Of a DNA stretch of 33,152 nucleotides, positions 6,952-25,345 are shown in pieces (the stretch's first letter is position 1; each line of letters opens with the position of its first letter). The notes under the pieces were generated by a model. That model had not been told where the DNA came from. It saw only the letters and a program-made list of their open reading frames with translations, and made no database searches. The stretch comes from Lachnospiraceae bacterium (GTDB lineage: Bacteria; Bacillota; Clostridia; Lachnospirales; Lachnospiraceae): the NCBI GenBank assembly GCA_030524705.1, contig JAUNGD010000040.1:1-33152 (forward strand). Reading direction: 5' to 3'. Made by a program: the position numbers and the translations under genes.

Positions 6952-7938
6952 TCACACCGTTTTCAACGCAGAATCAAACGCGATCGCAGAAGGTTCAAAG
7001 TTCGTCCTCTTCGCAAATTCAAAAGCCTCTTTAGCTCCGTACATTCTTTCCATACCGGAATCCTCCCATTCTACGGAAAGCGGACCCTCGTAGTGCATTG
7101 CATTCAGCTCTCTGATAATACCGTCAAAATCCACATCGCCATGTCCGAGAGAAACAAAATTCCATGCCCTTCTCACATCTCCGAACTCGATATGGCTTCC
7201 GAGAATGCCTGCCCGGCCATCCAGGCGAACCTTCACGTCTTTCATGTGGACATGATAGATTCTGTCCGCAAAATCCCTCAGAAACAGGCACGGGTTTACG
7301 CCCTGCCACTGCAGATGGGAAGGATCAAAGTTAATGCCAAGCGTTGGCCGCCACTCGAAAACATCCAGCAGCTTCTTTGTACTATAATAATCAAATGCAA
7401 TTTCCGTCGGATGAACCTCCAGTGCAAATTTGACGCCGCACTCATCGAAAACATCAAAGATCGGAGTCCACAGCTCTCTGATTCTCGCGTATCCGTCATC
7501 AATCATCTTCTGAGTGGTCTGCGGGAAGGAATACCAGAATGGCCAGATTGGGGAACCCATAAAGCAGGTAACTACCTTTGCCCCCATTTTCTTTGCAGCC
7601 TTCGCTGCGGCCTTTACTTCTTCTGCCGCCCAGGCACGGATCTCCTCTGGTTTGCCGGCGTACCGCGCCGGTGCGAAGTTGTCCAGACGTTCGTCCCACC
7701 GGTCTCCGATGCACTGCCCCGCCAGATGCACGCTCAGCGCCCACACCTTCAGATGATACCGTTTCAACGTATTATCAAATTTCTCTGCGTATGCTTCATC
7801 CTCCAGATAACGGTGTACGTCCAGATGTGACTGACAGGCAATCTCCAGCCCCTCGTACCCAATGGCGCTCATCTGTTTACAGACTTCCTCAAACGGCAGG
7901 TCGCCGTACTGCCCCGTAGTGATCGTAATTGGTCTCAT
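6952..7938 (-). CDS. Sugar phosphate isomerase/epimerase-like TIM barrel (AP endonuclease 2 family)
   Basis: A 328-residue TIM barrel of the xylose-isomerase-like superfamily, last gene of operon A. The metal ligands expected for the family are in place: E174 (FALEVHPTE), D205/H208 (NFDPSHLQW), H231 (YHVHMKDVK) and E290 (LSVEWEDSG). The N-terminus MRPITITTGQYGDLPFEEVC is the usual first strand and helix. Related proteins isomerise or epimerise keto sugars, act in inositol catabolism, or cleave 3-keto-glycosides together with Gfo/Idh partners. It follows dctP by 79 bp and shares the operon with a Gfo/Idh gene. The actual reaction is not determinable. RBS AGGGAGGGAAG precedes the ATG. It is longer than the other three barrels in the window (260-292 aa), so it is not a simple duplicate of them. 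Confidence 0.8.
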   Translation of the reverse strand: MRPITITTGQYGDLPFEEVCKQMSAIGYEGLEIACQSHLDVHRYLEDEAYAEKFDNTLKRYHLKVWALSVHLAGQCIGDRWDERLDNFAPARYAGKPEEIRAWAAEEVKAAAKAAKKMGAKVVTCFMGSPIWPFWYSFPQTTQKMIDDGYARIRELWTPIFDVFDECGVKFALEVHPTEIAFDYYSTKKLLDVFEWRPTLGINFDPSHLQWQGVNPCLFLRDFADRIYHVHMKDVKVRLDGRAGILGSHIEFGDVRRAWNFVSLGHGDVDFDGIIRELNAMHYEGPLSVEWEDSGMERMYGAKEAFEFAKRTNFEPSAIAFDSALKTV

Positions 7939-8017
7939 GACTTCTTCCCTCCCTTAAAAAGATGTGTCTTAACCCCTCTTTTTCATGATCCTTTTCGGTT
8001 GAAAAGTTTACTATGAA

Positions 8018-9019
8018 TTAATAATTCTCCCGTGTCGCCATAAGCAGTTCATACAGCTCCTTCTGAGAATCACTTGCGGATGCCATGAAATCATCTACTA
8101 CCGGCTGAACAGCCTCGATAAACGGAGTCTTATCAACCTCTGTGATCTCAACGCCCTGCTCTTCCATGGCTTTCAGACCTTCCTCTGTAGCTGCAGGCCA
8201 GATCTCGTTGTTCCATTCATCCGTAAATCTCTCTCCGGCTTCGATCAGAGCCGCCTGATCCTCTTCGGAAAGCGTGTTGAACCACATCGTACTTACAAAT
8301 ACCGGATCCGGAATCGTGAAGTGCTCCGTCAAAGAGAAGTATTTTGCAAGCTCCTGCCATCCATTTGCAACGATAACGGACGGAGTATGGTCAAGACCGT
8401 CGATGGTTCCCTGCTGAAGTCCTGTATAGATCTCACTTGATGCAAGCGGTGTCGCGATCGCGCCCATAGCGTTTGTAGCGTCAGCCAGAACCGGATCCTG
8501 CATACAGCGAAGCTTCATTCCGTCGAGATCCTCCGGGGTATTCACGGTCTTGCTGTCGTTCAGGACAGAACGGCTTCCGATGTCTGTCCATGCAATGATC
8601 TTTAAGCCGTTTGCTTCCATGTCTGCGTCAAGGACCTCACGGACTGCCGGATCCATCACAGTCGCACATGCCTGCTGTCCGTTCTCCCAAAGGTACGGAA
8701 GAGAAAATACGGACCACATATCGTTAAAGGTAGAAAGGTCAGTGGCGGCACACTCTGTCATTTCAATCGTTCCCATTGCCATACCCTCCAGAGTAGCGGC
8801 CTTGTCGCCGAGCTGGGAGGACGGGTAGAATTCCATCTTCATACGGCCTTCCGAACACTCCTCGATAAGCTCTGCAAGTCTGTTTGCACCATCCGCCTGC
8901 GTACCTGTTGACGGGTATGTCACGGAATACTTCACAACGGTCTCTGCGGAAGCTGTCATTGAAGCTGCGCCAAGCGCCATTCCTGCCACCAGTAACATGG
9001 ACATCGTTTTCTTTTTCAT
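8018..9019 (-). CDS. dctP: TRAP transporter solute-binding protein DctP (operon A)
   Basis: A 333-residue extracytoplasmic binding protein of the DctP family. Residues 1-25 form a signal peptide (MKKKTMSMLLVAGMALG, cut after ASA before ETVVKYS). The mature part shows the DctP fold with GDKAATLEGMAMGTIEM, the ligand-arginine region MKLRCMQDP and YTGLQQGTIDGLDHTP. Family members bind organic acids and sugar acids through that arginine and hand them to DctQM. The start at 9019 has AAGGAGA 7 bp upstream and matches the paralogue at 23254-24255. The in-frame start at 9064 would add a non-signal extension. About 15 substitutions separate the two mature proteins, so their ligands are probably the same or closely related. 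It sits far downstream of its membrane partners in the operon. Confidence 0.92.
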   Translation of the reverse strand: MKKKTMSMLLVAGMALGAASMTASAETVVKYSVTYPSTGTQADGANRLAELIEECSEGRMKMEFYPSSQLGDKAATLEGMAMGTIEMTECAATDLSTFNDMWSVFSLPYLWENGQQACATVMDPAVREVLDADMEANGLKIIAWTDIGSRSVLNDSKTVNTPEDLDGMKLRCMQDPVLADATNAMGAIATPLASSEIYTGLQQGTIDGLDHTPSVIVANGWQELAKYFSLTEHFTIPDPVFVSTMWFNTLSEEDQAALIEAGERFTDEWNNEIWPAATEEGLKAMEEQGVEITEVDKTPFIEAVQPVVDDFMASASDSQKELYELLMATRENY

Positions 9020-9069
9020 TTTCGTTCTCCTTTTTCTTTTTATATTTATGGCTTTGTTCGCCACAGTTT

Positions 9070-10173
9070 CTAGTCAACGCTGACCCAACGCCCGGTCTTT
9101 GCACTTTCAAAAATTTTATCCAGAACCTTCATCTGGTGAAGTCCGTCTTCAAAAGTGGCATACGGGTTTGCAGATCTTTCTCCGCGGATCGCGCCATAGA
9201 TGGCGGTAAAATTCTGTTTAAACGCATCTGGAAAGCCTTCTACGTGACCGCCAGGATAAGTAATGATCGGAGCTGTGTTTGGATGAGCCAATGCCTTGTC
9301 TTTCGTAAGTACACGGTTCGGCTCGTTCCGATAGCCAAGCTTCAGATCACCGATCGCTTCGCTGTCCCACTCTGCGGAAACATCGGAAGCAGCGACCTTG
9401 ATAAATGTCTGGTTCTTCTTTCCCTGATATACCTGTGAAAAGACAGCGCTTCCAATGATTCCGTTTTCAAACCGCAGCATGACATAGGAAGTATCCTCCG
9501 TGTCCACCGCCACATCCGTCACCGCGCCGTCCTTTGTCACCTTTCTGACGGGAAGATTCGTCTGAAACTCGGCAAAAACCTCTTTCACTTTGCTTCCTGT
9601 CACATACTCGGCAAGGTCGATCCAATGCGATCCGATATCAGAGGTCACACGCGTACTTCCGCCGTTTTTCGACAGCATTCTCCAGTTGAAATCAGATTCC
9701 ATGGAGAAGCAGTCCTGCAGGTATCCGCCGTGAACGCCGTAGATCGTTCCCAGCTCACCGTCTTTGATCATGTTGCGAAGCTGATGATTTGCCGGATAGA
9801 AACGATTGTGGAAATTCACTGCATTTACGAGACCGCTCTTTCTCGCCGCCTCCAGCATCTCCTGCGCCTCTGCCGCGTTTCTTGCCATCGGCTTTTCACA
9901 GACCACATTGATTCCATGTTCAAAAGCATACATTGCAATTTCTTTATGTGTATTATTCGGAGTGCAGATGTGAATGCAGTCCGGCCTGCACTCCTCGATC
10001 ATTTCACGATAATCTGCAAATCCCCGGGGAACATCCAGCTCCTCCGCCTTGCGCTGCGCATCCATGATATCCACCAATGCCACCACATCCACGCCAGGCA
10101 CCCGTTTCAGCGCTTCCACATGTGCCGCGCCGATAAAGCCTGAACCGATAACAGCCGCTTTTAATCTTTTCAT
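9070..10173 (-). CDS. Gfo/Idh/MocA-family NAD(P)-dependent oxidoreductase
   Basis: A 367-residue oxidoreductase. The Rossmann motif GSGFIG is at the N-terminus (VIGSGFIGAAHVEAL), followed by ICTPNNTHKE and the family signature CEKPMA, which bears the catalytic-region lysine. The C-terminal alpha/beta domain includes DIGSHWIDLAEYVTG, which places the expected histidine in the active site. Related enzymes oxidise inositols, sugars or glycosides at C3. It is the only Gfo/Idh gene of operon A, between a ROK kinase and dctP (51 bp). RBS GGAGGAGAAGG precedes the ATG. The length near 370 residues fits glucose-fructose-oxidoreductase-type subfamilies. Substrate unknown. Confidence 0.88.
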   Translation of the reverse strand: MKRLKAAVIGSGFIGAAHVEALKRVPGVDVVALVDIMDAQRKAEELDVPRGFADYREMIEECRPDCIHICTPNNTHKEIAMYAFEHGINVVCEKPMARNAAEAQEMLEAARKSGLVNAVNFHNRFYPANHQLRNMIKDGELGTIYGVHGGYLQDCFSMESDFNWRMLSKNGGSTRVTSDIGSHWIDLAEYVTGSKVKEVFAEFQTNLPVRKVTKDGAVTDVAVDTEDTSYVMLRFENGIIGSAVFSQVYQGKKNQTFIKVAASDVSAEWDSEAIGDLKLGYRNEPNRVLTKDKALAHPNTAPIITYPGGHVEGFPDAFKQNFTAIYGAIRGERSANPYATFEDGLHQMKVLDKIFESAKTGRWVSVD

Positions 10174-10195
10174 GTCAATCCTTCTCCTCCCATAT

Positions 10196-11140
10196 TTACT
10201 CCTGCAGAACCAGAGCTGCCGCGCCCATCAGCGCCGCCTCATATCCAAGAGGCGTTCTGACGATATCGATATTCTGCATGCGCTTAAATGCATTTTTCTG
10301 GACGGAAGCGCGGATAGCCGGAAGCAGCAGCTCAAGTGACGCCGCCACTCCTCCGCCGATCACGACCGCCTGCGTATTCAAAATGTTGACGCAGTAGGAA
10401 ATGCCCCTTCCGAGATAGGTGCCGATCTGCTCCATGATCTCCAGCGCCTCCCGGTTGCCCGCCTTTGCCAGGGCCGCACATCCCGCACCGTCCGCCTTTT
10501 TTCCCATGTCTGCCAGTGCCTGAGCAAATTCATCTGAGCTTTCTGCCAGCCTTTTTGTTTCACGGTTCAGCGCGGTGCCTGAGCCATGGGCTTCCAGACA
10601 GCCCTCCTGTCCGCAGGGGCAGTGAGCAGGATGAGCATATTCCACCTTCAGGTGCCCCAGCTCTCCGGCGAAGCCATGTCCGCCGCGAACCAGCCTTGCA
10701 TTTTCTACCACCGCTCCGCCGACTCCGGTGCTCACGGTCATCCAGATAAAATCAGAATACCTGCTTCCAAGTCCAAATCTTAATTCACCTATCGCACAGG
10801 CATTGACATCATTCTCACAGCAGATTTTTTTGATTCCTAACCTTTCGGATAAATATTCTGCTACGTGGATATTCTCCCAGTTTGCATACGGCGCATAGAT
10901 CAGAACGCCGTTTTCATTGTCGACAATACCGGGAAGCGATACGCCAAGGCCTGCCAGCTCATCGCCTGTCACCCCGGCCTTCTCCATCTGTCTCTTCATC
11001 GCCCCGGCACAGCGCTCCAAATGAGCCTCATAGCTGGAAACCAGAGACGGAAAGTTTTCCTGTGCCAGGATCTCCCCCTTTTCATTCAGGACTGCTGCGA
11101 TGGTTTTTGTTCCTCCAATGTCCAATGCTGCGATATACAT
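10196..11140 (-). CDS. ROK-family sugar kinase
   Basis: A 314-residue ROK protein without an N-terminal helix-turn-helix, so a kinase and not a repressor. The ATP motif DIGGTK is at 7-12, the catalytic aspartate D111 in CENDVNACAIGE, STGVGGAVV at 137-145, and the zinc motif GELGH...CPCGQEGCLE at about 159-183. Members phosphorylate glucose, fructose, N-acetylated hexosamines or allose. It provides a phosphorylation step for a free sugar produced or imported by operon A, since TRAP import does not phosphorylate. It is flanked by SIS and Gfo/Idh genes at 23 and 22 bp. RBS GGAGGATGAAG. Exact sugar unknown. Confidence 0.88.
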   Translation of the reverse strand: MYIAALDIGGTKTIAAVLNEKGEILAQENFPSLVSSYEAHLERCAGAMKRQMEKAGVTGDELAGLGVSLPGIVDNENGVLIYAPYANWENIHVAEYLSERLGIKKICCENDVNACAIGELRFGLGSRYSDFIWMTVSTGVGGAVVENARLVRGGHGFAGELGHLKVEYAHPAHCPCGQEGCLEAHGSGTALNRETKRLAESSDEFAQALADMGKKADGAGCAALAKAGNREALEIMEQIGTYLGRGISYCVNILNTQAVVIGGGVAASLELLLPAIRASVQKNAFKRMQNIDIVRTPLGYEAALMGAAALVLQE

Positions 11141-11163
11141 ATCTTCATCCTCCGAAAAGTTAT

Positions 11164-11724
11164 TTAAGCTACTTCGTTGACCGCACGGATCTTCTGAGAG
11201 ATCGCGTGTCCAAGAATCATATGAATGTCCTCTACCACACCATAATTTTCGGACGGAATAATCATTGCGAAATCAGACATTCCGATAATCCTGCCGCCCT
11301 TATCCGCTACTACGCAGGCGGTCTTTGCTCCAATCGAATTCGCATACCTGTGAGCCTCTACGAGGTTTGGCGAGCTGCCGGAAACAGAGAAGGTCAATAC
11401 CAGATCGTCCGGCTCAAGAAGGTTTTTCATCTGCTCGCTGAATGTGGTATCATAGCCAAAGTCATTTCCAAGGGCGCTGAAAACTGCCGTATTGTCTACC
11501 AGAGAAACAATTTTCAGGCGCTTGGAGCCTTCTGTATTGATTCCCTTTCCAAAATCACATACCCAGTGGGATGCTGCCGCGGCGCTTCCCCCGTTTCCAA
11601 GGACAAACAGACGCTTTCCTTTTTCTCTGGTCTCCTCGATCAGATCAAACAGCTTCTGGATATCGTCTCGTTTTACACCGTCAAGCGTGGTTTTTAACAT
11701 ATCAGTATAATTATCAAAAAACAT
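11164..11724 (-). CDS. SIS-domain sugar-phosphate isomerase (GmhA-like)
   Basis: A 186-residue single SIS domain. The phosphosugar-binding motifs are GNGGSA (43-48) and SVSGSSPN (113-120), as in phosphoheptose isomerase. Glutamate and histidine near the C-terminus (VVEDIHMILGHAISQKI) match the GmhA catalytic region. It probably interconverts an aldose and ketose phosphate. Its position directly before the ROK kinase suggests that it acts on that kinase's product or on a related phosphosugar. No heptose or LPS genes are nearby, so the heptose role of true GmhA is not implied. RBS AAGGAGACGG. Confidence 0.82.
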   Translation of the reverse strand: MFFDNYTDMLKTTLDGVKRDDIQKLFDLIEETREKGKRLFVLGNGGSAAAASHWVCDFGKGINTEGSKRLKIVSLVDNTAVFSALGNDFGYDTTFSEQMKNLLEPDDLVLTFSVSGSSPNLVEAHRYANSIGAKTACVVADKGGRIIGMSDFAMIIPSENYGVVEDIHMILGHAISQKIRAVNEVA

Positions 11725-11751
11725 AATTCCCGTCTCCTTTTTATGAATTGA

Positions 11752-12186
11752 TTACTCTTCTACATATTCTCCTGAATTGTCCTCAAGCACGTCGTAGCCT
11801 GCACGCATATACAGATCGAGCTGCGGCGGCGTCGCGATGCCAAGCGTTACGAAATCCTCTGTATTCTCAGCAGGATTGCGCGTTCCATGAGCCACACCTG
11901 GAGGCGCAAAAACGATGTCTCCTGCTTCCACCGGAATCCATTTGTCGTAGAGATAGCACTCTCCCTTGCCGCTGTGAATGATAAGGATCTCCTCTGAGAT
12001 CGGATGTACATGCGGGGCAAACTCCTTGCCCGGCTTGTGGAAGCCCACTGCGATATTAGCGCCGCGGCATCCCATCTTTGGATTCAGCGCGAAGTGTACG
12101 TCATGGCCATTTGGCATTGTCCACACTTCTCCGCCGCTGATACTGAATTTTCCACCGTATTTCATTACATGCTCTTTATTTGTCAT
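11752..12186 (-). CDS. Cupin-domain protein
   Basis: A 144-residue single-domain cupin. The metal motif is complete: H59 and H61 with the glutamate pair E65/E66 (HVHPISEEILII), then H100 in APPGVAHGTRNP. Small cupins include sugar isomerases, lyases and binding proteins, and many sugar-acid operons carry one of unknown function. It lies 28 bp before the SIS gene and is separated from the upstream dehydrogenase by 179 bp that contain a folded element, which could set a different expression level for the second half of operon A. RBS AAAAGGAGAAAAAAG. An enzymatic role is inferred from the intact metal site. Confidence 0.8.
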   Translation of the reverse strand: MTNKEHVMKYGGKFSISGGEVWTMPNGHDVHFALNPKMGCRGANIAVGFHKPGKEFAPHVHPISEEILIIHSGKGECYLYDKWIPVEAGDIVFAPPGVAHGTRNPAENTEDFVTLGIATPPQLDLYMRAGYDVLEDNSGEYVEE

Positions 12187-12281
12187 CTTTTTTCTCCTTT
12201 TTTATGAAATCAAAAGTAAATCTTTTTATACTATGATAACCACTACATAGACTCGAGAAAATGCTTCTCATTTTCCCTCGT

Positions 12282-12363
12282 TAAGCTATGGCTGCTGTCG
12301 CAGCTACGCAGCTTTTACCGTGTAAAACCTGCTGGAAGTCCCTGCAGAACTTCCCATAGCTTA
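12282..12363. repeat. Cloverleaf-like structured element in operon A
   Basis: The perfect 10-bp outer stem TAAGCTATGG/CCATAGCTTA (12282-12291, 12354-12363) encloses three small hairpins: GCTGC/GCAGC around a TGTC loop (12291-12304), TTTTAC/GTAAAA around CGT, and GAAGT/ACTTC (12335-12339, 12349-12353). A further hairpin GAAAATG/CATTTTC lies just outside, near 12256-12275. It starts 2 bp after the dehydrogenase stop in transcript order. Its ends (TTAAGCT and AGCTTAC) are the same as those of the element at 4741-4905. Confidence 0.55.
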
Positions 12364-12365
12364 CA

Positions 12366-13403
12366 TTACCGGAACCGGATCACCGGCTTAATCGCCGCGC
12401 CCGACATCATGTCGTCAAACGCCTGAAGCGCATCCTTATAATCGTAAACAGTAATCAGTTTCTTCAGATCATCCTGCAGCTTTACAAGCACATCCACCGC
12501 CGCTGATCTTCCGTTTGTTTTCAGATGCGGGTACGGACCCTTGGAACCAACGATCTTCAGTTCCTTCCGCATGATCGGAAGCAGCTCTACCTGGTCTGCA
12601 AATCCGTTGTAAACGCTGCCTACCACAAGACGTCCACCCGGACGGACTACCTGGAACGCATTCTGGAGAACCGCATTTACACCGGTCAGCTCAACGATCA
12701 CATCTGCGCCGTCGGATCCGACCATCTCAAAGATCTGCTCCTTCCAGTCTGCCTCACTGCTGTTTACTGCGTCGATAAATCCAAGCTCCCGCACCTTGTC
12801 GATACGCGCTTTGTTGTTGTCCACGCCAACCACCGTATCAACACCCATGCTCTTTATGATACGGGCCGCGATCAGGCCCATCGGCCCCATACCAAACACC
12901 ACCACAGTCTCACCGTGCTTTACGTCTGCCCGGCGCGCCACATGGTATGCGCAGTTTGTCGGCTCGAGGATCGTTGCGGTTATATCGTCAATAGAATCGG
13001 GAATCGGACTGATGAAGCTGTACTCATCCGTATTCAAAACCAGCGTCTCCTCTGAAAATCCACCCGGAAGAAGCGCGTCGTTCATACTCCTGCAGTAGTT
13101 TGGAAGGCCGTTGCGGCAGTTCCAGCAATGTCCGCAAGTCTTAGAAAGCTCACTCGCCACACGCATTCCGTTCGTAATACCGTTTGCCCCTGCCCCGGCG
13201 TCAACTACAACGCCTGAGAATTCATGTCCGAAATACCGTTCTGTCTCCAGGGATCTTTTCCCTTTGAAAAGTGCAATATCACTGCCGCAGATACTGCATG
13301 CCGTTACATCGATCTTTACTGTTCCGGGTTCAAGAGCCGTGATGCCCGGAGCATTGTCCTGCAGCTCTAATTTCCCATAATCCACTAATGCTACCTTTCT
13401 CAT
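12366..13403 (-). CDS. Zinc-dependent medium-chain alcohol/polyol dehydrogenase (operon A)
   Basis: A 345-residue zinc MDR enzyme of the sorbitol/threonine dehydrogenase type. Catalytic zinc ligands are C39 (CSICGSD) and H60/E61 (GHEFSG). The structural zinc is held by C90, C93, C96 and C104. The NAD-binding GMGPMGL is near residue 170. It would oxidise a secondary hydroxyl of a polyol, sugar or sugar acid, or catalyse the reverse. It lies 17 bp after the TIM-barrel gene in operon A. Its paralogue at 24308-25345 differs at about 40 of 345 positions, more than the dctQM genes beside it. RBS AAGGAGAG. Confidence 0.9.
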   Translation of the reverse strand: MRKVALVDYGKLELQDNAPGITALEPGTVKIDVTACSICGSDIALFKGKRSLETERYFGHEFSGVVVDAGAGANGITNGMRVASELSKTCGHCWNCRNGLPNYCRSMNDALLPGGFSEETLVLNTDEYSFISPIPDSIDDITATILEPTNCAYHVARRADVKHGETVVVFGMGPMGLIAARIIKSMGVDTVVGVDNNKARIDKVRELGFIDAVNSSEADWKEQIFEMVGSDGADVIVELTGVNAVLQNAFQVVRPGGRLVVGSVYNGFADQVELLPIMRKELKIVGSKGPYPHLKTNGRSAAVDVLVKLQDDLKKLITVYDYKDALQAFDDMMSGAAIKPVIRFR

Positions 13404-13420: not shown

Positions 13421-14251
13421 TTATCCAAAAATTTCGCGTGCCACTTTGATGCCATTGCCCATATGCTCTACAGACTCTTCAAATGTGTCATACCAGAGCT
13501 TCCACGGATACAGACCAAATACCTCGAAGGAGCAGTAGCCCTGGAAACCTACTTCCCGAAGGGCCTGAGCAACCGACGCGAAATCGAAATGTCCGTCTCC
13601 CGGAGCCTGTCTGTTGGAGTCCGCAAGATGAAGATTTGCAAGTGTATGGCCGTACCTGCGGATGGTCTCTGCCGGATCCTTTTCCTCAATATTCAGATGA
13701 TATGTATCCGCCATGGTGCGGACATTCGGAAGGTCTACCAGCTTTGTAAAGTTCACCGCCTCCTCCAGGGTGTTCATGAAGTTTGTCTCATAGCGGTTGA
13801 TCGCTTCGATTGCGAAGGTCACGCCCTTTGGCTGTGCATACAGAGCAGCCTCCCGGATCACCTCAGCCATACATTTCACGCCGGCCTTCCTGTCCCAATC
13901 CGGCTCAAAGCTCCTCGTCTTTCCGCCGCTGCCCAGAATGATCGTCGGGCACTCCATATCGCAGGCTACGTCTACTACTTTCTTTAAATAGTCCGCTGAT
14001 TTTTTCATCATCTCCGGATCTGTGCTTAAAAGGCGAATCGTTCCATCAAAAATATAGTGAAGTGCACTGCAGACGATCCCTGCGTCCTTGATCCAGCCAA
14101 GCACCTCTGCCCGGCGTTCTTTTGTGGAATCCACCGGCAGGTGAAGTGCTGCCGTAATCTCAACTGCGTCATACCCCAGTGCTGCGGAGGTATCAATGAT
14201 TTTCTTAAGATCAGCCATACCAAAGGCTGCTGTACAAGCGCTCAGCTTCAT
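13421..14251 (-). CDS. Sugar phosphate isomerase/epimerase-like TIM barrel
   Basis: A 276-residue xylose-isomerase-like barrel resembling D-tagatose/D-psicose 3-epimerases. The metal ligands are seen as E in FAIEAINRYE, D and H in MADTYHLNIEE, H in LANLHLADSNR and E in GYCSFEVFG, the usual order for ketose 3-epimerases. The R-Y pair after the first glutamate also fits that group. The start at 14251 has AAGGAGA 8 bp upstream. A start at 14269 lacks one. It lies between dctM and the zinc dehydrogenase. The equivalent position in operon B is empty (95 bp at 25346-25440), so this is an accessory gene gained or lost between the two copies. Confidence 0.83.
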   Translation of the reverse strand: MKLSACTAAFGMADLKKIIDTSAALGYDAVEITAALHLPVDSTKERRAEVLGWIKDAGIVCSALHYIFDGTIRLLSTDPEMMKKSADYLKKVVDVACDMECPTIILGSGGKTRSFEPDWDRKAGVKCMAEVIREAALYAQPKGVTFAIEAINRYETNFMNTLEEAVNFTKLVDLPNVRTMADTYHLNIEEKDPAETIRRYGHTLANLHLADSNRQAPGDGHFDFASVAQALREVGFQGYCSFEVFGLYPWKLWYDTFEESVEHMGNGIKVAREIFG

Positions 14252-14282
14252 ATTTTTTCTCCTTTTCATTTAGTTCATGCTT

Positions 14283-17165: not shown

Positions 17166-17187
17166 TCTACCTATAACCAGCCGGATC

Positions 17188-17322
17188 ATGTGTTTGAAAA
17201 ATAACACAATGGAATTATGTCAGAAAAAAACAAGAGCCTATCTGATTGCCCGTCAAATGTATGAAAACGGACTGATTGATATTATCGGAAGAGGTGCAGC
17301 AAAGAAATATAAATTGAAATGA
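17188..17322 (+). CDS. Possible 44-aa small protein of unknown function
   Basis: An open frame from ATG 17188 encodes 44 residues, with the basic stretch KKTRAYLIARQMYENGLIDI and the tail GRGAAKKYKLK. An internal ATG at 17209 is another possible start. Neither has a convincing ribosome site. I do not recognise it. It could be a gene remnant left between LysR and the operon B terminator, or chance. The remainder of 17166-17399 shows nothing else. Confidence 0.25.
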   Translation: MCLKNNTMELCQKKTRAYLIARQMYENGLIDIIGRGAAKKYKLK

Positions 17323-17399
17323 TTCGCTCCGGAGTCAGCTCTGAATGATTTTTGCTTCCGATGCGGGGAAAATACCATTAAGTATGCATGGGTAACCAA

Positions 17400-17444
17400 A
17401 AAGAGTATCACCAAAGTCCTCCTCTCGGTCTGGTGATACTCTTT
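17400..17444 (-). terminator. Intrinsic terminator of operon B
   Basis: The perfect 14-bp stem AAAGAGTATCACCA/TGGTGATACTCTTT (17400-17413, 17431-17444) with a 17-nt loop ends on the minus strand in CTTTTTGG. It lies 17 bp past the aldolase stop. It may also stop plus-strand transcripts from LysR. Confidence 0.8.
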
Positions 17445-17461
17445 AAATTTGCTTTTTATAA

Positions 17462-18370: not shown

Positions 18371-18421
18371 GTTTTTTCTCCTTCATTGCTGTTCTTTTAT
18401 TTACAACATCTTTTCATTCCG

Positions 18422-19435
18422 TTACTGCAAACGTTTTAAATACCCGCAGCTGTCGCGGATCACGATCTCATACGGCAAAACAGTACGTATATCCTCTATG
18501 GATTCCTTCTTTATCTTAGCCAGCAGCTTCCGAAACGCCACCTCTCCCATCTGACGCTTCGGCTGTCTGACCGTAGTCAGAGCGGGCTCAAAAAATGAGG
18601 CAATATCAATATCATCAAAGCCCACGACAGCACAATCCTCCGGTACGGATAATCCATTGTCCTTCAATGCTTTGATCGCTCCGATCGCCATGGTATCACC
18701 AGCTGCAAATACAGCAGAAAACTTCTTCTTTTTTCGGATCAGGATTTCCATCTGCTCATATCCGCCTCTGATGGATGCCTCTCCCTTTCGAATCAGCTCT
18801 TCGTCCACGGAAATCCCGTTTCCCTCCAGCGCAGCTATGTAACCCTTAAGCCGTTCCTGATAAAGCGGCAGCGCCTCCGAGCTTGTGATATGTGCAATCT
18901 CTTTGTGCCCGATACTGATCAAATGGCTCATCATCTTTCTGGCTGCCGTCGCATTGTCGATGGTAATATTCGGAACATTTTCTTTGTCGATTCCCTGCAC
19001 TACCATGACAACCGGATAGTCCCCGGTGACGATCTCCAGCAGCTTTTCCGCCATGCTCGCGGATATCGAAATAATACCGTCCACCTGATGCCGCTGAATC
19101 GCTTCCACGTAGTACTTCTCCAGAGAAGGCTGTCCCTTCAGATCTGCGATCAATACCTGATAACCATTTGCTTCTGCCTCGGCCTCTATCCCACGGATAA
19201 TTTCATGGTAAAAAGCATTCTCAATATCCGGCACAATTACAATGATCATGTTCGTCTGCTGTGTGCGGAGCTGCCGTGCCAGCGCGTTTGGCTGATAATT
19301 CATCTCTTCGATGACCTTCATAACGCGCTCTCTCGTTTCGCGCTTTACGATCTCCGGGGTCTTCATAATTCTGGAAACAGTCGCCACCGATACTCCCGCC
19401 GCCTTTGCAACGTCATAAATCGTAACATCAGCCAT
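18422..19435 (-). CDS. LacI-family transcriptional regulator
   Basis: A 337-residue LacI/GalR protein. The N-terminal helix-turn-helix and hinge read VTIYDVAKAAGVSVATVSRI and ...NYQPNALARQLR. The periplasmic-binding-like core includes IIVIVPDIENAFYHEIIRGI and the C-terminal AVVGFDDIDIASFFEPALTTV. The start at 19435 has GGAGGGA 7 bp upstream. The upstream ATG at 19450 would remove that site. It lies between the TIM-barrel gene and the aldolase and may have its own promoter. It is the obvious candidate to bind the two matched CG-centred operators near 27291 and 27434, which are the kind of site LacI proteins use. The inducer is unknown. Confidence 0.92.
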   Translation of the reverse strand: MADVTIYDVAKAAGVSVATVSRIMKTPEIVKRETRERVMKVIEEMNYQPNALARQLRTQQTNMIIVIVPDIENAFYHEIIRGIEAEAEANGYQVLIADLKGQPSLEKYYVEAIQRHQVDGIISISASMAEKLLEIVTGDYPVVMVVQGIDKENVPNITIDNATAARKMMSHLISIGHKEIAHITSSEALPLYQERLKGYIAALEGNGISVDEELIRKGEASIRGGYEQMEILIRKKKKFSAVFAAGDTMAIGAIKALKDNGLSVPEDCAVVGFDDIDIASFFEPALTTVRQPKRQMGEVAFRKLLAKIKKESIEDIRTVLPYEIVIRDSCGYLKRLQ

Positions 19436-19469
19436 TTTATGTCCCTCCATTTTTCAATACATGCATTAA

Positions 19470-19498
19470 ATGTTAAAACCGAAAACTCCAAAAGTCAA
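19470..19498 (-). promoter_or_regulatory. Possible internal promoter before lacI
   Basis: On the minus strand TTGACT (19493-19498), a 17-bp spacer and TAACAT (19470-19475) lie 35 bp before the LacI start. The -10 is poor (4 of 6). It would let the repressor be made when the long operon is shut. Confidence 0.4.
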
Positions 19499-19545
19499 GA
19501 AACATATTACTCAAAACCCAGGGCATATGGCACTGCGGTACAAAA

Positions 19546-20328
19546 TTATTTATTTAAAACATCCTTTAATACTGCCATTGCTTTTTCATGTGCCTCGTTC
19601 CAGTCTTCTGGAATATCAGCCTCTACCGTTATCGTTCCCTGATAGCCTGATTTTCTGACGGCGTTCAGAAAGTCCGTATAATCATAGTCATCCTCCGTGT
19701 CCGGGAACGGACGCTCCGGCCATGACAGCGGATAATCCACATGGATATGGTGAATATAATCTGCATAAGTAACAATGTCTTCCAATGTCTCCTTCGCCCA
19801 TACCATATGGCGCAGATCCGCCATAGCAAACACATTCGGCATGCCGATTTCCTTGATCACGCGTACCGCCTCAGGCAGCGTATTGATATAGTTGGAATAC
19901 TTCGGGCCAAGGGGCTCCAGAATCACTTCCAGATGATTTTTTTCTGCTATTTCGGCAAACATGCGCATAAAGTCAATAAAACGGCTTTCTTTGCTGATGC
20001 TGGTTTCATCCGTAAGCAGACGCGCCTTCCCATTTCCTATAATGATACATTTCATACCAATCATGTTTGCTCTGCGGCATGCATGTTCCAGATAATTTTT
20101 ATATTCATCCATGGAAAACCTGTCCGTAAAAAACCACGGATCAGCGATCGGCAGCGCCCTTGCCCCGGTCAATACCGGAAATCCTGTTTTCCGGATCTTA
20201 TCGCACAAAATCTGAAATTCCTCCTCCGGCAGCGCTTCAATTTCCGGCACATCCAGTTCCGCGAAATCAAAGCCCGCCGCCTGGATCTTCTCATAATCTG
20301 CAATCCGTCCAAATCCGCCCAATTTCAT
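19546..20328 (-). CDS. Sugar phosphate isomerase/epimerase-like TIM barrel
   Basis: A 260-residue xylose-isomerase-like barrel starting MKLGGFGRIADYEKIQAAGF. The metal ligands appear as E in VILEPLGPKYSNYI, D-x-x-H in AMADLRHMVWAKE, H in YIHHIHVDYPLSW and E in GTITVEADIPEDW. The proline after the first glutamate (LEPLG) and the DYPLSWPERPFP stretch mark a subfamily distinct from the other barrels here. It follows the Gfo/Idh gene by 24 bp behind GGAAGGAGG, a pairing repeated by the next gene pair upstream. It may epimerise or cleave the oxidised product of its Gfo/Idh partner. Reaction unknown. Confidence 0.8.
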   Translation of the reverse strand: MKLGGFGRIADYEKIQAAGFDFAELDVPEIEALPEEEFQILCDKIRKTGFPVLTGARALPIADPWFFTDRFSMDEYKNYLEHACRRANMIGMKCIIIGNGKARLLTDETSISKESRFIDFMRMFAEIAEKNHLEVILEPLGPKYSNYINTLPEAVRVIKEIGMPNVFAMADLRHMVWAKETLEDIVTYADYIHHIHVDYPLSWPERPFPDTEDDYDYTDFLNAVRKSGYQGTITVEADIPEDWNEAHEKAMAVLKDVLNK

Positions 20329-20352
20329 TTTCTGTCTCCTCCTTCCTGTGAT

Positions 20353-21312
20353 TTACCGGACACCTTTTGCATTCATCTCATCGAGGATTTTCGCTGTGTC
20401 CAGCATTTCCTTTAGCGACGCTCTCGGGGTTGTTCCTGTCATCCAGTCATTCAGGGTCGTCCTCGTATATTCCGCATAATAAACATCGCTGTCTGTATTC
20501 AGCGGAACCATCACCGGCTCTCTGCCGTACTCCCTCAGCTCCAGCCGGTTTTCCGCAAGAATATAATAGCCGTTTTCTGTCACAATAGTCCACCGGTTCT
20601 CGCGTTTCTGTTCCTCAGACATCGGGTAGGCATAGCCGCTCTCCAGAAGCAGGGAAGCCCCATTCGGAATTTCCAGAAGAGAGGTGGCATACGTTTCAAT
20701 GTCATATTCCGACGCATATTTGTAGCTGGATGCCAAAACCTCTGCGGTGGTGCAGTCTGTCAGATACATCGCCATGTCAATAAAATGCACACCCAGATTT
20801 GTCATGCATCCTCCGCCCGCGGTCTTTTTGGAAAGCATCCATTTCGAGGTCGCCAGATATCTGGAAGGCGGCCCTGCAATAAAGCGGTATGACATATGTG
20901 TAATTGGCGCCTTCAGATATTTATGCTTCAAATCATTTACGGTGTCGCTGTATCTCCAGACAAACGGGATAGAGCAAAAACCTTTTTTCTGCTCACACAG
21001 ATCATAAAGCGTTTCCACCTCACCTGCATTCAGGCCCGCAGGTTTTTCCATGGAACATGCAACGCCCTGATTCAGCAGGTACTCCGCCACCTCCTTCATA
21101 CGGTAATGCGGAGCAAATGCAAATACAAAATCCGGCTTTGTCTCCATAATCATCTGCTTATAATCCCGGTAGACCGGACATCCGTAGCTCTTCGCAAACT
21201 CCGCCGCAATTTTTAAATCATCATCGCTGATTCCCACCACGGAATTTTTCGGAAGCCCCGGAAGATAGAGAGGCAGATGCCAGTGGCTTACGCCCAATAA
21301 AGCAATTTTCAT
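20353..21312 (-). CDS. Gfo/Idh/MocA-family oxidoreductase
   Basis: A 319-residue oxidoreductase. The nucleotide-binding start is unusual: ALLGVSHWHLPLYLPGLPKN, where SHWHL replaces the normal G-x-x-G part, as in some Gfo/Idh subfamilies. MEKPAG corresponds to the EKP signature, and GGGCMTNLGVHFIDMAMYLT carries the active-site histidine region. The start at 21312 places AGGAG 9 bp upstream. The ATG at 21321 abuts that site. It lies 24 bp before a TIM-barrel gene and 38 bp after another. The divergent N-terminal loop suggests altered cofactor binding or a tightly held cofactor, which is inference. Confidence 0.8.
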   Translation of the reverse strand: MKIALLGVSHWHLPLYLPGLPKNSVVGISDDDLKIAAEFAKSYGCPVYRDYKQMIMETKPDFVFAFAPHYRMKEVAEYLLNQGVACSMEKPAGLNAGEVETLYDLCEQKKGFCSIPFVWRYSDTVNDLKHKYLKAPITHMSYRFIAGPPSRYLATSKWMLSKKTAGGGCMTNLGVHFIDMAMYLTDCTTAEVLASSYKYASEYDIETYATSLLEIPNGASLLLESGYAYPMSEEQKRENRWTIVTENGYYILAENRLELREYGREPVMVPLNTDSDVYYAEYTRTTLNDWMTGTTPRASLKEMLDTAKILDEMNAKGVR

Positions 21313-21350
21313 TGTATCCATCTCCTGATTCAGATATTTTCAGTTCTTTT

Positions 21351-22229
21351 TTACGGCAGGATCGTTTTCAGATATTCGATACTCTTCTTCATGCCGACCG
21401 ACGCGTCTGGAATATCATCTGGATGCCATCTTCTTTCATATTCCAGCGAAAGCCATCCGTCATATCCCCGGGCTTTTACCATTTTCAGGATCTCAGGCCA
21501 CTCAACGACCCCTTCTCCCACGATTTTTGTAATCACGTTTCTGTCCGATTCCTTTGGATGAGAAACCTCTCCTGAAACAAAGGATTTTCCTTCGATGAAT
21601 ACCAGATCCTTTACGTGCATGTAGGCCACGTACTGCTGCTGAATCGAAACAGCCTCCTGATATCCTTCATTTTCCGTGAATGTCAGATTTGCCTGATCAT
21701 AAAGGATCCGTACCGCGGGATGGTCGATATCCCTGATCAATGCCGCGCTGTCCTTTGCCGATACTGACATCGTATTAAAATGATTTTCAATGACCAGGGT
21801 CACATTTTTCTTTAATGCCAGATCTCCAAGATAACGCATGGACCGTATCAGATTATTTCTCCTTTCTTCGAGATTTTCCGTATCTCCCGCGGCAAGATTA
21901 CCGCCATAGATGCGGATAAAATGAGCGCCCAGGTATTCACAGTAGTCAATCACCCTGCTGATTCCTTCTATCTCCTTTTGGCGAAGCGTTTCATCCAGAG
22001 AATTAAAGTAAGAATTGTACGGCGTCAGGCAGGAAATCTCAATATTATTTTCCTGCGCACATTTCTTTATCTCCTTCAGGATCGCTTCATCACAGTCGCA
22101 GGGAATGCCAGAAATATACCCATCCTGTACTACGATCTCCGCCCCGTCTGCGCCAATCTCATGAAAAAGCTTAATCGCTTCGCATACCGTATATTCCGGC
22201 GTACCCATTGTATGCCCGGCAATTTTCAT
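21351..22229 (-). CDS. Sugar phosphate isomerase/epimerase-like TIM barrel
   Basis: A 292-residue barrel starting MKIAGHTMGTPEYTVCEAIK. The metal ligands are seen as E-N-H in LVIENHFNTM, D in ILYDQANL, H in AYMHVKDLVF and E in WLSLEYERRWHPDD. The IENH and YDQAN signatures resemble hydroxypyruvate-isomerase and epimerase-like members. It is sandwiched between two Gfo/Idh genes (38 and 19 bp), with RBS GGAGGAGGAGAAG. It is most likely part of a two-step oxidise-then-rearrange module with one of them. The substrate is unknown. Confidence 0.82.
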   Translation of the reverse strand: MKIAGHTMGTPEYTVCEAIKLFHEIGADGAEIVVQDGYISGIPCDCDEAILKEIKKCAQENNIEISCLTPYNSYFNSLDETLRQKEIEGISRVIDYCEYLGAHFIRIYGGNLAAGDTENLEERRNNLIRSMRYLGDLALKKNVTLVIENHFNTMSVSAKDSAALIRDIDHPAVRILYDQANLTFTENEGYQEAVSIQQQYVAYMHVKDLVFIEGKSFVSGEVSHPKESDRNVITKIVGEGVVEWPEILKMVKARGYDGWLSLEYERRWHPDDIPDASVGMKKSIEYLKTILP

Positions 22230-22248
22230 GTCTTCTCCTCCTCCTGAA

Positions 22249-23196
22249 CTAACCCATGCTCGGAAGCCCTGCGGCTCTTAAGATCCGGTCTAAAAGTTCA
22301 TGTGTTTTAAATGCGTCAGCCGCGTTCGTAAGCGGCGTTTTATCCTCCTTGACGCAGTCGATAAAGTGACGGATCGCATAGCTGAATCCGAGCTTATCCT
22401 CAGAGCGCGCCCAGCCCATAGCCAAAGGCGTCATAGCCGTCTTGTGCTGTTCCTGGGCATCTGTAACGGTGACGCTGTCCGGCATCTTGATAAATACGGA
22501 GCGGTTGCCTCCATGTATCTCAATCGTCTCCTCCCACTGACCGGAGCTTCTGTCTGCAATCAGCATCCCCGATGCGCCGTTTTCAAAAAGCAGCTGAGCC
22601 GTAGTAAATGTCTCGTAGTCTGGATCTGTAAATTTTGAAATAGCGTGTACATCCTTTACCTCGCCGCCGTAATATCTCATCAGATCTACCATATGGATCG
22701 CATTTTCCAAAGTCGCATGATACTCTGTCGCCGGGCGGTTTTTCTGAGCAATGATAACATCCGGCATGATATTCGTATATACTTCTTTCGCTTTCTGGCA
22801 CACCGGAGCGTATCTCCGGTTGAATCCGATCATCAGCTTGCGGCCTGTCTGTTCAGAAAGCTCTACCATACGGTCCGCATCCTTCAAGGTAGTCGCCATA
22901 GGCTTTTCGCTGTATACGTCAAGCCCTTCCTTCAGTAAAAACTCGATCTGCTGAGCGTGGCACGCCTTCGGGGTAAGCACAAAGGCTGCGTCAAGATCCA
23001 GCTTCACCAGCTCCTCCAGAGAGGCTACCGCCTTTTCTGCTCCGCACATTCTCTGGGCTTTCCTTGCACTCTCGATATGATTCGCCATAATGCCTGCAAT
23101 CTCCACATCCTCAAATCTGGGAAGCACCGGAAGAAAGTTATTGCTCGCAACATATCCCACTCCAATGATTCCAACACGTACTTTCTCTTTACTCAT
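22249..23196 (-). CDS. Gfo/Idh/MocA-family oxidoreductase
   Basis: A 315-residue oxidoreductase with a normal Rossmann start (VGIIGVGYVASNNFLPVL), VLTPKACHAQQ, the signature SEKPMA and the central YHATLENAIHMVDLMRYYGG that supplies the active-site histidine. It is a different subfamily from the other two in the window: NRRYAP follows the EKP region. The start is uncertain: ATG 23196 has a weak AAAGAG at suitable distance, while ATG 23205 directly abuts it. It is the first accessory enzyme after dctP in operon B, 19 bp before a TIM-barrel gene. Substrate unknown. Confidence 0.83.
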   Translation of the reverse strand: MSKEKVRVGIIGVGYVASNNFLPVLPRFEDVEIAGIMANHIESARKAQRMCGAEKAVASLEELVKLDLDAAFVLTPKACHAQQIEFLLKEGLDVYSEKPMATTLKDADRMVELSEQTGRKLMIGFNRRYAPVCQKAKEVYTNIMPDVIIAQKNRPATEYHATLENAIHMVDLMRYYGGEVKDVHAISKFTDPDYETFTTAQLLFENGASGMLIADRSSGQWEETIEIHGGNRSVFIKMPDSVTVTDAQEQHKTAMTPLAMGWARSEDKLGFSYAIRHFIDCVKEDKTPLTNAADAFKTHELLDRILRAAGLPSMG

Positions 23197-23253
23197 ATTT
23201 TTCATCTCTTTCTTCTATATTTTAATGAAAATCCAACGCCTGTTTCATATTAA

Positions 23254-24255
23254 TCAATAGTTCTCCCGGGTTGCCATAAGCAATTCATACAGCGCTTTCT
23301 GAGAATCGCTTGCGGATGCCAGGAAATCATCTACCACCGGCTGAACCGCTTCAATAAACGGTGTCTTATCAACCTCCACGATCTCAACGCCCTGCTCTTC
23401 CATGGCTTTCAGACCTGCCTCTGTAGCTTCCGGCCAGATCTTATTGTTCCATTCATCTGTGAATTTCTCACCGGCTTCGATCAGCGCAGCCTGATCCTCC
23501 TCGGAAAGTGTATTGAACCACATCGTACTTACGAATACCGGATCCGGAATCGTGAAATGCTCCGTGAGGGAGAAATATTTCGCAAGCTCCTGCCATCCGT
23601 TTGCAACGATAACAGACGGAGTATGGTCAAGTCCGTCAATCGTCCCCTGCTGGAGACCTGTATAAATCTCACTCGATGCAAGCGGTGTAGCAATCGCGCC
23701 CATAGCCGTCGTAGCATCGGCAAGAACCGGATCCTGCATACAGCGAAGCTTCAGGCCGGAAAGGTCTTCCGGGGTATTCACAGTCCTGCTGTCGTTGAGG
23801 ATAGAGCGGCTTCCGATATCTGTCCATGCAATGATCTTCAATCCATTAGCCTCCATATCTGCGTCAAGCATCTCCCGGACTGCCGGATCCATCACGGTGG
23901 CGCAGGCCTGCTGTCCATTCTCCCAAAGATAAGGAAGAGAGAATACAGACCACATATCATTGAAAGCAGAAAGGTCAGTAGCTGCACACTCTGTCATCTC
24001 AATCGTTCCCATTGCCATACCCTCCAGAGTAGCGGCCTTGTCGCCAAGCTGGGAGGACGGATAAAATTCCATCTTCATACGTCCCTCAGAACACTCTTCG
24101 ATGAGTTCTCCAAGCCTGTTTGCTCCATCCGCCTGCGTACCCGTTGACGGATACGTTACAGAATACTTCACAACTGTTTCTGCAGAGGCTGTCATTGCAG
24201 CTGTACTAAGTGCCATACTTGTCATAAGTAACACGGAAATCATTCTTTTTTTCAT
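23254..24255 (-). CDS. dctP: TRAP transporter solute-binding protein DctP (operon B)
   Basis: A 333-residue DctP paralogue of the protein at 8018-9019, same length and same predicted cleavage after ASA (residue 25). The start at 24255 keeps AAGGAGA at 7-bp spacing exactly as in the paralogue. The ATG at 24261 abuts the site. The ligand-arginine region reads LKLRCMQDP. Substitutions against the first copy are scattered and mostly conservative. The signal peptides differ much more than the mature parts, which argues for purifying selection on the ligand site. It follows the zinc dehydrogenase by 52 bp. Function: captures the substrate for DctQM of operon B and, given the similarity, perhaps of both operons. 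Confidence 0.92.
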   Translation of the reverse strand: MKKRMISVLLMTSMALSTAAMTASAETVVKYSVTYPSTGTQADGANRLGELIEECSEGRMKMEFYPSSQLGDKAATLEGMAMGTIEMTECAATDLSAFNDMWSVFSLPYLWENGQQACATVMDPAVREMLDADMEANGLKIIAWTDIGSRSILNDSRTVNTPEDLSGLKLRCMQDPVLADATTAMGAIATPLASSEIYTGLQQGTIDGLDHTPSVIVANGWQELAKYFSLTEHFTIPDPVFVSTMWFNTLSEEDQAALIEAGEKFTDEWNNKIWPEATEAGLKAMEEQGVEIVEVDKTPFIEAVQPVVDDFLASASDSQKALYELLMATRENY

Positions 24256-24307
24256 CTTCATTCTCCTTTTCTATTATTTTATGTAAAATATTTTTCTTAC
24301 CTTTGAG

Positions 24308-25345
24308 CTAGCTGAAACGAATCACCGGTTTGATTGCCGCGCCTGACATCATATCCTCAAATGCCCGGTGAGCATCTCTGTAATCATAAACTGTAATCAG
24401 TTTTTTCAGATCATCCTGCAGCTTCACAAGCACATCCAGCGCCGCAGAGGCGCCGTCTGTTTTCAGATGCGGGTATGGCCCCTTTGCGCCAACGATCGTC
24501 AGCTCCTTGCGCATGATCGGAAGAAGCTCTACCTGGTCTGCAAAGCCGTGGTAAACACTGCCCACCACGAAACGCCCGCCGGAACGAATGATCCGAAAAG
24601 CGCTCTGAAGAACCGCATTTACGCCGGTCAGTTCAATAATCACATCCGCCCCCTTACTCCCGATCATCTCAAAGACCTGATTCTCCCAGTTTGCTTCGCT
24701 GCTGTCTACCACATCGACAAAGCCAAGCTCACGGACTTTTTCTACACGGGCCTTATTGTTATCCACGCCAATCACTGTATCGACGCCCATACTCTTTATG
24801 ATACGCGCCGCAATCAATCCCATGGGCCCCATGCCAAAGACCACCACAGTCTCGCCATGCTTTACGTTTGCCCGGCGGGCCACATGGTATGCGCAGTTCG
24901 TCGGCTCAAGGATTGCAGCCGTTATATCATCAATGGAATTCGGAATCGGACTGATGAAGCTGTATTCATCCGTGTTCAGAACCAGTGTTTCCTCTGAAAA
25001 TCCTCCCGGCAGAAGCGCATCATTCATGCTCCTGCAGTAATTCGGAAGGCCGTTGCGGCAATTCCAGCAGTGGCCGCAGGTCCTGGAAAGCTCGCTCGCC
25101 ACACGCATTCCGTTCGCAATACCGTTCGCTCCTGCCCCGGCATCAACCACCACGCCGGAGAATTCATGTCCAAAGTACCGTTCCTCCTCCAGAGATCTCT
25201 TTCCTTTAAAAAGTGCAATATCACTGCCGCAGATACTGCATGCTGTTACGCGAATCTTCACGGTCCCGGGTTCAAGAGCCGTGATGCCCGGAGCATCTTC
25301 CTGCAGCTCCAGCCTTCCATAATCGACTAATGCTACTTTTCTCAT
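24308..25345 (-). CDS. Zinc-dependent medium-chain alcohol/polyol dehydrogenase (operon B)
   Basis: A 345-residue paralogue of the dehydrogenase at 12366-13403, about 88 percent identical. All zinc ligands (C39, H60, E61, C90, C93, C96, C104) and the GMGPMGL coenzyme motif are kept. Most substitutions fall between residues 190 and 330, in the coenzyme domain and the C-terminal part. Both copies are therefore probably active on the same class of hydroxyl compound. It lies 95 bp after dctM where operon A has a TIM-barrel gene in between. RBS AAAGGAAGG. Confidence 0.9.
   Translation of the reverse strand: MRKVALVDYGRLELQEDAPGITALEPGTVKIRVTACSICGSDIALFKGKRSLEEERYFGHEFSGVVVDAGAGANGIANGMRVASELSRTCGHCWNCRNGLPNYCRSMNDALLPGGFSEETLVLNTDEYSFISPIPNSIDDITAAILEPTNCAYHVARRANVKHGETVVVFGMGPMGLIAARIIKSMGVDTVIGVDNNKARVEKVRELGFVDVVDSSEANWENQVFEMIGSKGADVIIELTGVNAVLQSAFRIIRSGGRFVVGSVYHGFADQVELLPIMRKELTIVGAKGPYPHLKTDGASAALDVLVKLQDDLKKLITVYDYRDAHRAFEDMMSGAAIKPVIRFS

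Follow-up and report, generated by a model that had tools for sequence, protein, structure and literature searches.

The breakdown of glycosides by oxidation and elimination has already been published, and several described systems come close to the locus studied here. The O-glucoside pathway of Agrobacterium tumefaciens comprises GlycDH, AtOGE, AtHYD and a Gfo reductase (PMC10628242). In Bacillus smithii, the levoglucosan pathway LgdA-LgdB1-LgdB2-LgdC proceeds through oxidation, elimination, hydration and reduction, and LgdB2 was suggested to be probably bifunctional, performing elimination and hydration with Mn2+ (PMC7676230); neighbourhoods of LgdA hold ABC and some MFS transporters (PMC10066097). 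A Gfo/Idh oxidoreductase and a barrel protein are likewise combined in DgpA/DgpB/DgpC, the gut system that cleaves C-glycosides (PMC8563793), and Escherichia coli YcjQRS, which interconverts gulosides and glucosides, groups a Zn dehydrogenase, an epimerase-type barrel and a Gfo/Idh protein. Here, we compare with these systems a set of Gfo/Idh, barrel, Zn dehydrogenase and tripartite ATP-independent periplasmic (TRAP) transporter genes from a Lachnospiraceae bacterium. The window is the whole stretch analysed, that is, the entire 33,152-base contig (C143, JAUNGD010000040.1) of a 3.87-Mb draft genome (GCA_030524705.1).

The locus resembles each of these systems in part. Like the A. tumefaciens pathway, the first of its two operons (operon A) joins an AtHYD-family barrel to a Gfo/Idh oxidoreductase, but it has no recognisable AtOGE and carries TRAP, Zn dehydrogenase, ROK and SIS genes. 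As in B. smithii, a levoglucosan-dehydrogenase-like Gfo protein (Gfo1) stands with barrels; however, against the levoglucosan dehydrogenase model NF052479 (cut-off 650 bits) Gfo1 reaches 169 bits, and Gfo2 and Gfo3 35 and 52 bits, so that all three miss the cut-off, and a TRAP transporter takes the place of the ABC transporters found there. The Dgp system shares the Gfo/Idh-barrel combination, DgpA is among the PDB matches of Gfo1 (E-value 2.8e-25), and relatives of the window genes lie in a cluster of that kind on a plasmid described below. Unlike Dgp, the locus shows no C-glycoside deglycosidase beta subunit (PF19906) in a Pfam scan that covered 14 window genes, other short open reading frames (ORFs) standing outside it, and the listed matches of the barrels include no known alpha subunit. 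From YcjQRS the locus differs in dehydrogenases that are not YcjQ-like, in having no phosphorylase and in using TRAP instead of ABC uptake. In the literature searched, outside which most subscription papers lay, no system combined this chemistry with TRAP uptake, duplicated Zn dehydrogenases, ROK and SIS. The original prediction, which covered positions 6952-25345, held that the combination with a TRAP system may be an undescribed pathway; this kind of pathway has been in print since 2020 (PMC7676230), but the link of its chemistry to a TRAP importer looks like a new variant.

The best explanation, which we regard as about as likely as not, is that the locus holds two operons under separate control, which bring in an anionic sugar compound by way of near-identical TRAP transporters and degrade it by oxidation, operon A by a variant of the non-hydrolytic 3-keto-glycoside pathway.

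The hydratase-family barrel of operon A

The gene set forms two operons, both on the minus strand. Operon A runs from 16162 to 6952 as DctQ1-DctM1-Bar2-ADH1-cupin-SIS-ROK-Gfo1-DctP1-HYD, with gaps of 5-179 bp and a divergent LysR-family regulator gene (16275-17165, plus strand). Operon B runs from 27257 to 17462 as DctQ2-DctM2-ADH2-DctP2-Gfo3-Bar4-Gfo2-Bar3-LacI-NAL, with gaps of 11-95 bp and its own LacI gene. Pfam and NCBIfam matches bear out the predicted content of three Gfo/Idh oxidoreductases, four TIM barrels of family PF01261 and two Zn dehydrogenases beside TRAP genes, all on the minus strand. What had been taken as one dense set is indeed a clustering of these families, but it consists of two operons, and the border at 25345 cuts operon B, whose TRAP permeases extend to 27257. 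The contig holds three of the nine Gfo/Idh matches in the draft genome (binomial P 5e-5) and, of the genome's 14 barrel matches, four of the 13 that pass the Pfam cut-off (P 4e-6). The density is thus above chance, with the reservation that these P values assume random placement of single genes and ignore normal operon clustering.

The reading of operon A turns on HYD (6952-7938, minus strand). In PDB sequence searches HYD matched SCO6571 (2zds; E 1.1e-98, residues 2-326) and, less closely, 8ro4 (E 5.4e-47, residues 21-325 of 328), an entry whose title names the 2-hydroxy-3-keto-glucal hydratase AtHYD of A. tumefaciens. A Glu-Asp-His-Glu set, which we take to be the metal ligands, is invariant in 11 aligned barrels, all four window barrels included. 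On these similarities HYD belongs with high probability to the AtHYD family, and it is likely to be a 2-hydroxy-3-keto-glycal hydratase.

Gene context supports this placement. It was examined around the best 80 of at least 581 HYD relatives in a species-genome collection. A same-strand Gfo/Idh gene lies within 400 bp of HYD in 64 of the 80 (60 of 73 where the upstream sequence exceeds 1.2 kb). Among other ORFs of at least 250 amino acids in the same loci the corresponding figure is 37 of 644, and 5 of 364 for those more than 3 kb from HYD, although these controls were chosen mechanically, include some spurious ORFs and had overlaps handled slightly more strictly, so these figures somewhat underestimate the true background. 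In 63 of 66 cases the Gfo gene precedes HYD, at a median gap of 22 bp. Further genes co-directional with HYD are another barrel (45/80), an ABC ATPase motif (37/80), a Zn dehydrogenase (7), ROK (3) and SIS (4), and in five loci (L014, L042, L057, L072 and L080) a Gfo gene, a further barrel and a Zn dehydrogenase all share its direction. TRAP uptake is what sets operon A apart: none of the 80 loci has a co-directional TRAP permease, DctM occurring in two, both times on the opposite strand, although cases may have been missed because just 31 of the 80 have about 10 kb on both sides. Relatives of the window SIS gene occur in five HYD loci (L001, L005, L010, L044 and L074), most of them also with ROK; HYD, ROK and SIS may form a recurrent module.

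Individual loci show the same association. In Geosporobacter ferrireducens (L075), LacI and ABC genes are accompanied by a Gfo1 relative (49%) followed directly by HYD (64%). Plasmid pSA2 of Novosphingobium resinovorum (L200) carries HYD (46%) and a Gfo1 relative (32%, 194 bits) together with a xylose-isomerase-like barrel, a C-glycoside deglycosidase beta subunit (PF19906, E 4.5e-34) and a GMC oxidoreductase. This cluster (positions 41-12860 of that locus) lies near a gallate dioxygenase gene, pSA2 is typed as conjugative, and a mobile pathway for polyphenol C-glycosides is possible. Of two Arthrobacter plasmid loci, one (L199) has a small barrel, two Gfo/Idh genes and HYD consecutively. In the other (L198) a Zn dehydrogenase, a barrel, Gfo and HYD fall within 8 kb, the first two being divergent from the last two and from ABC permeases.

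Because HYD falls in the AtHYD family, its relatives are linked to Gfo genes and one of them sits in a C-glycoside deglycosidase cluster, we lean towards a 3-keto route in operon A. Oxidation-based glycoside breakdown, as originally proposed, is supported for operon A through HYD, a gene that had not been singled out, but not for the operon B pairs that had been stressed, to which no pathway can be assigned.

For Gfo1 (9070-10173, minus strand, as are all operon A and B genes) levoglucosan dehydrogenase is the top curated model. Relatives at E 1e-60 were found in 4 of 60 related genomes (its own included) and in just 1 of 35 other genomes of the genus; two of them (L132 and L133) are followed directly by a distant HYD-like barrel and a third (L137) is not. 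Elsewhere in the same genome (contig C6, 25000-44000; L134) a Gfo1 paralogue (38%) occurs with ABC genes, another Gfo/Idh gene and, further downstream, two barrels. All three Gfo proteins share two motifs taken as catalytic, EKP and, downstream of it, a histidine motif. The barrel Bar2 (13421-14269) is of ketose-3-epimerase/IolO type (TM0416 E 3.7e-30; YcjR E 3e-17), and ADH1 (12366-13403; PF00107 and PF08240) is a Tdh/RspB-like Zn dehydrogenase with 89% identity to ADH2. The remaining enzymes are a ROK-family sugar kinase (10196-11140; PF00480 216 bits, ROK glucokinase 186 against a cut-off of 260 bits), a SIS-domain, GmhA-like sugar phosphate isomerase (11164-11724; gmhA 93 against 209 bits) and a small cupin (11752-12186; PF07883).

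TRAP uptake and a candidate pathway

DctP, DctQ and DctM components are all present by profile matches, in two TRAP sets. Operon A encodes the binding protein DctP1 (8018-9064; TRAP_S1 215 bits, model pLDDT 90), the large permease DctM1 (14283-15596; PF06808 370 bits) and the small permease DctQ1 (15608-16162, start uncertain; 98% to DctQ2), and operon B encodes DctP2 (23254-24261; 93% to DctP1), DctM2 (25441-26754; dctM 386 bits, cut-off reached) and DctQ2 (26766-27257; PF04290 68 bits), its first gene. Carboxylates are the usual ligands of TRAP binding proteins and are held by a pair of arginines and an asparagine (PMC11668362, PMC5812351). When the two window DctP proteins were aligned with 26 of the 29 relatives found, both clamp arginines (R165 and R186 in DctP1) were invariant in all 28 proteins. 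An anionic substrate is therefore likely, since the arginine pair for carboxylates is kept in both binding proteins. Glu225 is replaced by Asp in the window pair alone among the 28, and an unusual substrate is possible. That TRAP uptake suggests an acidic substrate is a point absent from the original prediction. The top PDB sequence match, 4x8r (E 3.1e-50), is 34% identical and ranks fourth in model comparison after 4p47, 4n91 and 2xa5; it was reported with glucuronate, in a paper which warns that most such ligands co-purified (PMC11668362). The hexuronate-use genes UxaC and UxuA lie within 5 kb of each other elsewhere in the genome, a proximity that fits a free or a released uronate alike. 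In both window DctP proteins the signal peptide lacks a lipobox cysteine, although a simple lipobox pattern occurs in 20 of the 28 aligned proteins; in an organism with a single membrane this would be odd.

In the 3-keto route that we favour for operon A, an imported glycoside, probably bearing a carboxylate, would be oxidised at C3 by Gfo1 or ADH1, after which the glycosidic bond would be broken by beta-elimination and the product hydrated by HYD. A dehydrogenase (Gfo1 and/or ADH1) would reduce the hydrated product to the free sugar, which the ROK kinase and SIS isomerase would deliver to central metabolism, provided that HYD shares its pathway with the TRAP, ROK and SIS genes. Bar2 could be an epimerase of the 3-keto intermediate or the eliminase; alternatively, HYD might carry out both elimination and hydration, as LgdB2 has been suggested to do. 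Operon B would accompany operon A under LacI control and, with its two Gfo-barrel pairs and a lyase of the DHDPS type, act on a related acidic substrate.

Several observations speak against this scheme. TRAP systems usually import small acids, and a glycoside ligand here is putative. The asparagine that supports the arginine pair is absent: both window DctP proteins have His226 at this position, where the other 26 have Asn (22) or Ser (4). Gfo1 and HYD are not adjacent in the window, DctP1 standing between them, and 16 of the 80 HYD relatives have no adjacent Gfo gene, although 7 of the 80 have less than 1.2 kb upstream. Neither AtOGE (8bvk) nor the C-glycoside deglycosidases 7exz, 7dnn and 7exb appear among the matches listed for the barrels, and the evidence for the AtHYD assignment itself is called preliminary by its authors (PMC10628242). 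Finally, gene linkage offers no support for ADH1 and Bar4, which have no close relatives in the genomes searched: ADH1 relatives were confined to the genome itself among 344 genomes of the order (E 1e-80) and 398 of the phylum (E 1e-60), with no plasmid match at E 1e-40, as were Bar4 relatives among the 344 (E 1e-40). The order and phylum samples share genomes, and scoring covered only some of the first-look candidates.

Operon B and its control

The two adjacent Gfo-barrel pairs of the original prediction are real, and its ends at 21312 and 23196 are alternative starts of the genes that we place at 21321 and 23205. Bar3 (19546-20328; PF01261 98 bits) is paired with Gfo2 (20353-21321; PF01408 46 bits), and Bar4 (21351-22229; PF01261 150 bits) with Gfo3 (22249-23205), a MviM-like protein near 3uuw (E 4e-27) and 1tlt (E 1e-26). 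The operon further encodes ADH2 (24308-25345), a LacI-family regulator (18422-19450; profile match) and, at its end, a DHDPS/NAL-family lyase or aldolase (17462-18370; PF00701 202 bits, dapA 182 against a cut-off of 206 bits) that stays below every curated cut-off.

Gfo2 and Gfo3 are distant from characterised enzymes. Gfo2 has matches in 32 plasmid records; the four regions examined (L194-L197, from Agrobacterium, Rhizobium and Caballeronia) hold IclR, ABC and shikimate-dehydrogenase genes, with cupin or FAH-family genes, and no Bar3-like gene beside the Gfo2 relative. In one of them (L196) a barrel and a gene of the DHDPS family also lie within 9 kb. The substrate of Gfo2 may be something other than a plain sugar. 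Bar3 is weakly TM0416- and YcjR-like. The Bar4 model (pLDDT 90) matches Art22, tagatose 3-epimerase, SCO6571, UlaE, AtHYD and YcjR about equally well, and its fold therefore does not name its reaction. In looser searches, 7 of 196 genomes of the class had Bar4 and 28 had Bar3, own genome included, and operon B was not conserved in the larger contexts of three relatives' loci (L131, L135 and L136). A third related cluster, with TRAP, DHDPS-family and Gfo/Idh genes, lies in the same genome (contig C85, 1-8000; L170).

Operon B fits no known pathway found in this analysis. For it a glycoside route is about as likely as a sugar-acid route, with the DHDPS-type gene leaning towards the latter. Across the locus, and especially in operon B, catabolism of sugar acids without glycosidic cleavage is a serious possibility, if one that we would not bet on: a hexuronate, aldonate or keto-aldonate would be imported, oxidised, epimerised and dehydrated, and the resulting 2-keto-3-deoxy acid split by the DHDPS-family enzyme. 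That enzyme gene, the glucuronate reported in 4x8r (PMC11668362), UxaC and UxuA in the genome, and the locus of the closest Bar3 relative found (38%; L131), which stands beside a TRAP binding protein, a cupin and an L-sulfolactate/3-dehydro-gulonate-type dehydrogenase, all agree with it; however, it leaves unexplained the AtHYD-family barrel and Gfo1 of operon A, whose relatives are linked to glycosides. More doubtful is a pathway dedicated to acidic glycosides (e.g. glucuronides or aldobiouronic acids), hydrolase-free, fed by TRAP uptake and working by C3 oxidation and elimination.

The operons share their TRAP genes and Zn dehydrogenase, with DNA identities of 99.0% for DctM, 95.3% for DctQ, 86.9% for DctP and 83.3% for ADH. 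Within DctM, 11 consecutive 100-base windows (14300-15399) are identical, giving 1.1 kb free of differences. Set against the 83-95% of the other duplicates, this near-identity suggests recent gene conversion or strong local constraint on DctM.

Upstream of DctQ2 lies a promoter-like site on the minus strand (27311-27339; TTGACA-17-TATAAT) that matches the sigma-70 consensus at 12/12 positions, the sole perfect one among 30 promoter-like sites in 15500-28000, where shuffles give 16.6. It is flanked by two LacI-type operators with exact TGTAANCGNWTACA, one proximal (27285-27298) and one distal (27427-27440), their centres 142 bp apart; the window holds no other exact match, although the pattern was written after the sites were seen and is a description, no independent test. 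Allowing two mismatches gives 7 sites in total, within chance (12 of 100 shuffles reach 7). With a LacI gene inside the operon and operators at its promoter, operon B looks as if it is repressed by its own LacI protein, perhaps with looping. At operon A the promoter-like sites are weaker (16246-16217, minus; 16181-16210, plus; 10/12 each), and the only candidates for a LacI-type operator are three two-mismatch sites (10275, 12437 and 13295), all within genes.

The earlier statement that the set contains no hydrolase is true only inside 6952-25345. No glycoside hydrolase family was matched by the 19 genes of operons A and B plus LysR in the NCBIfam scan (DctM1 and DctQ1, 99% and 98% identical to scanned copies, were left out), but the twentieth gene scanned, at 27516-28949 just beyond the border, encodes a glycoside hydrolase family 1 (GH1) 6-phospho-beta-glucosidase. 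A stem-loop between it and operon B (27464-27504) is a likely terminator. The region 27516-31899 comprises the GH1 gene and upstream genes that we read by eye as a beta-glucoside phosphotransferase system permease and an RpiR regulator; a hydrolytic system directly adjoins the hydrolase-free operons. We also considered misbinning of the contig. The tetranucleotide distance to the genome mean is 8.3 for the whole window and 9.6-27.4 for 16 chunks of the genome (8 shorter chunks of 24 were dropped); parts of the window give 14.5-24.4, a range overlapping the 14.4-82.3 of 11 foreign loci. These distances merely fail to suggest misbinning, and the test is weak.

Remaining alternatives and significance

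The orthology check proposed for this locus did not give the result that would have refuted the original prediction: the Gfo proteins, barrels and Zn dehydrogenases all stay below the cut-offs of the NCBIfam equivalog models, those for inositol catabolism among them. A YcjQRS-like route, in which hexosides would be interconverted through C3 oxidation, C4 epimerisation and reduction without cleavage, is improbable: the same three families do occur in one operon, with 104 bits between Gfo1 and YcjS and 83 bits between Bar2 and YcjR, but HYD has no part in it, and orthology of ADH1 and ADH2 to YcjQ (53 and 54 bits) was rejected, since five other E. coli Zn dehydrogenases, Tdh, RspB, GatD (partial), IdnD and Ahr, score higher. 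Catabolism of inositol or another cyclitol is more improbable still. IolO, IolM, IolE and IolG models are among the NCBIfam matches, yet all fall far below their cut-offs (Bar2-IolO 161/300, ADH2-IolM 145/450, HYD-IolE 67/290 and Gfo1-IolG 129/355 bits), and the 20 scanned genes matched no IolB, IolC, IolD or IolN model. Use of sialic or anhydro-sialic acid, which shares the broad families (TRAP, Gfo/Idh, NAL-like lyase, ROK kinase) and a Gfo1 match to YjhC (6o15, E 1.7e-11), is the least credible of all, since its models stay under cut-off (NanA-type 148/281, ManNAc kinase 111/283 bits), no NanE-type match occurs in the scanned genes, and four barrels and two Zn dehydrogenases would be unexplained.

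Surveys that look for glycoside hydrolases miss glycoside cleavage that proceeds without them. The linkage of HYD to Gfo genes could be used as a marker for such hydrolase-free clusters, and this locus provides a concrete gene set. If true, a TRAP-fed version would extend this type of cleavage from mostly neutral to charged glycosides, glucuronides included, and a bacterium could free aglycones from glucuronides without a beta-glucuronidase that annotation would recognise.

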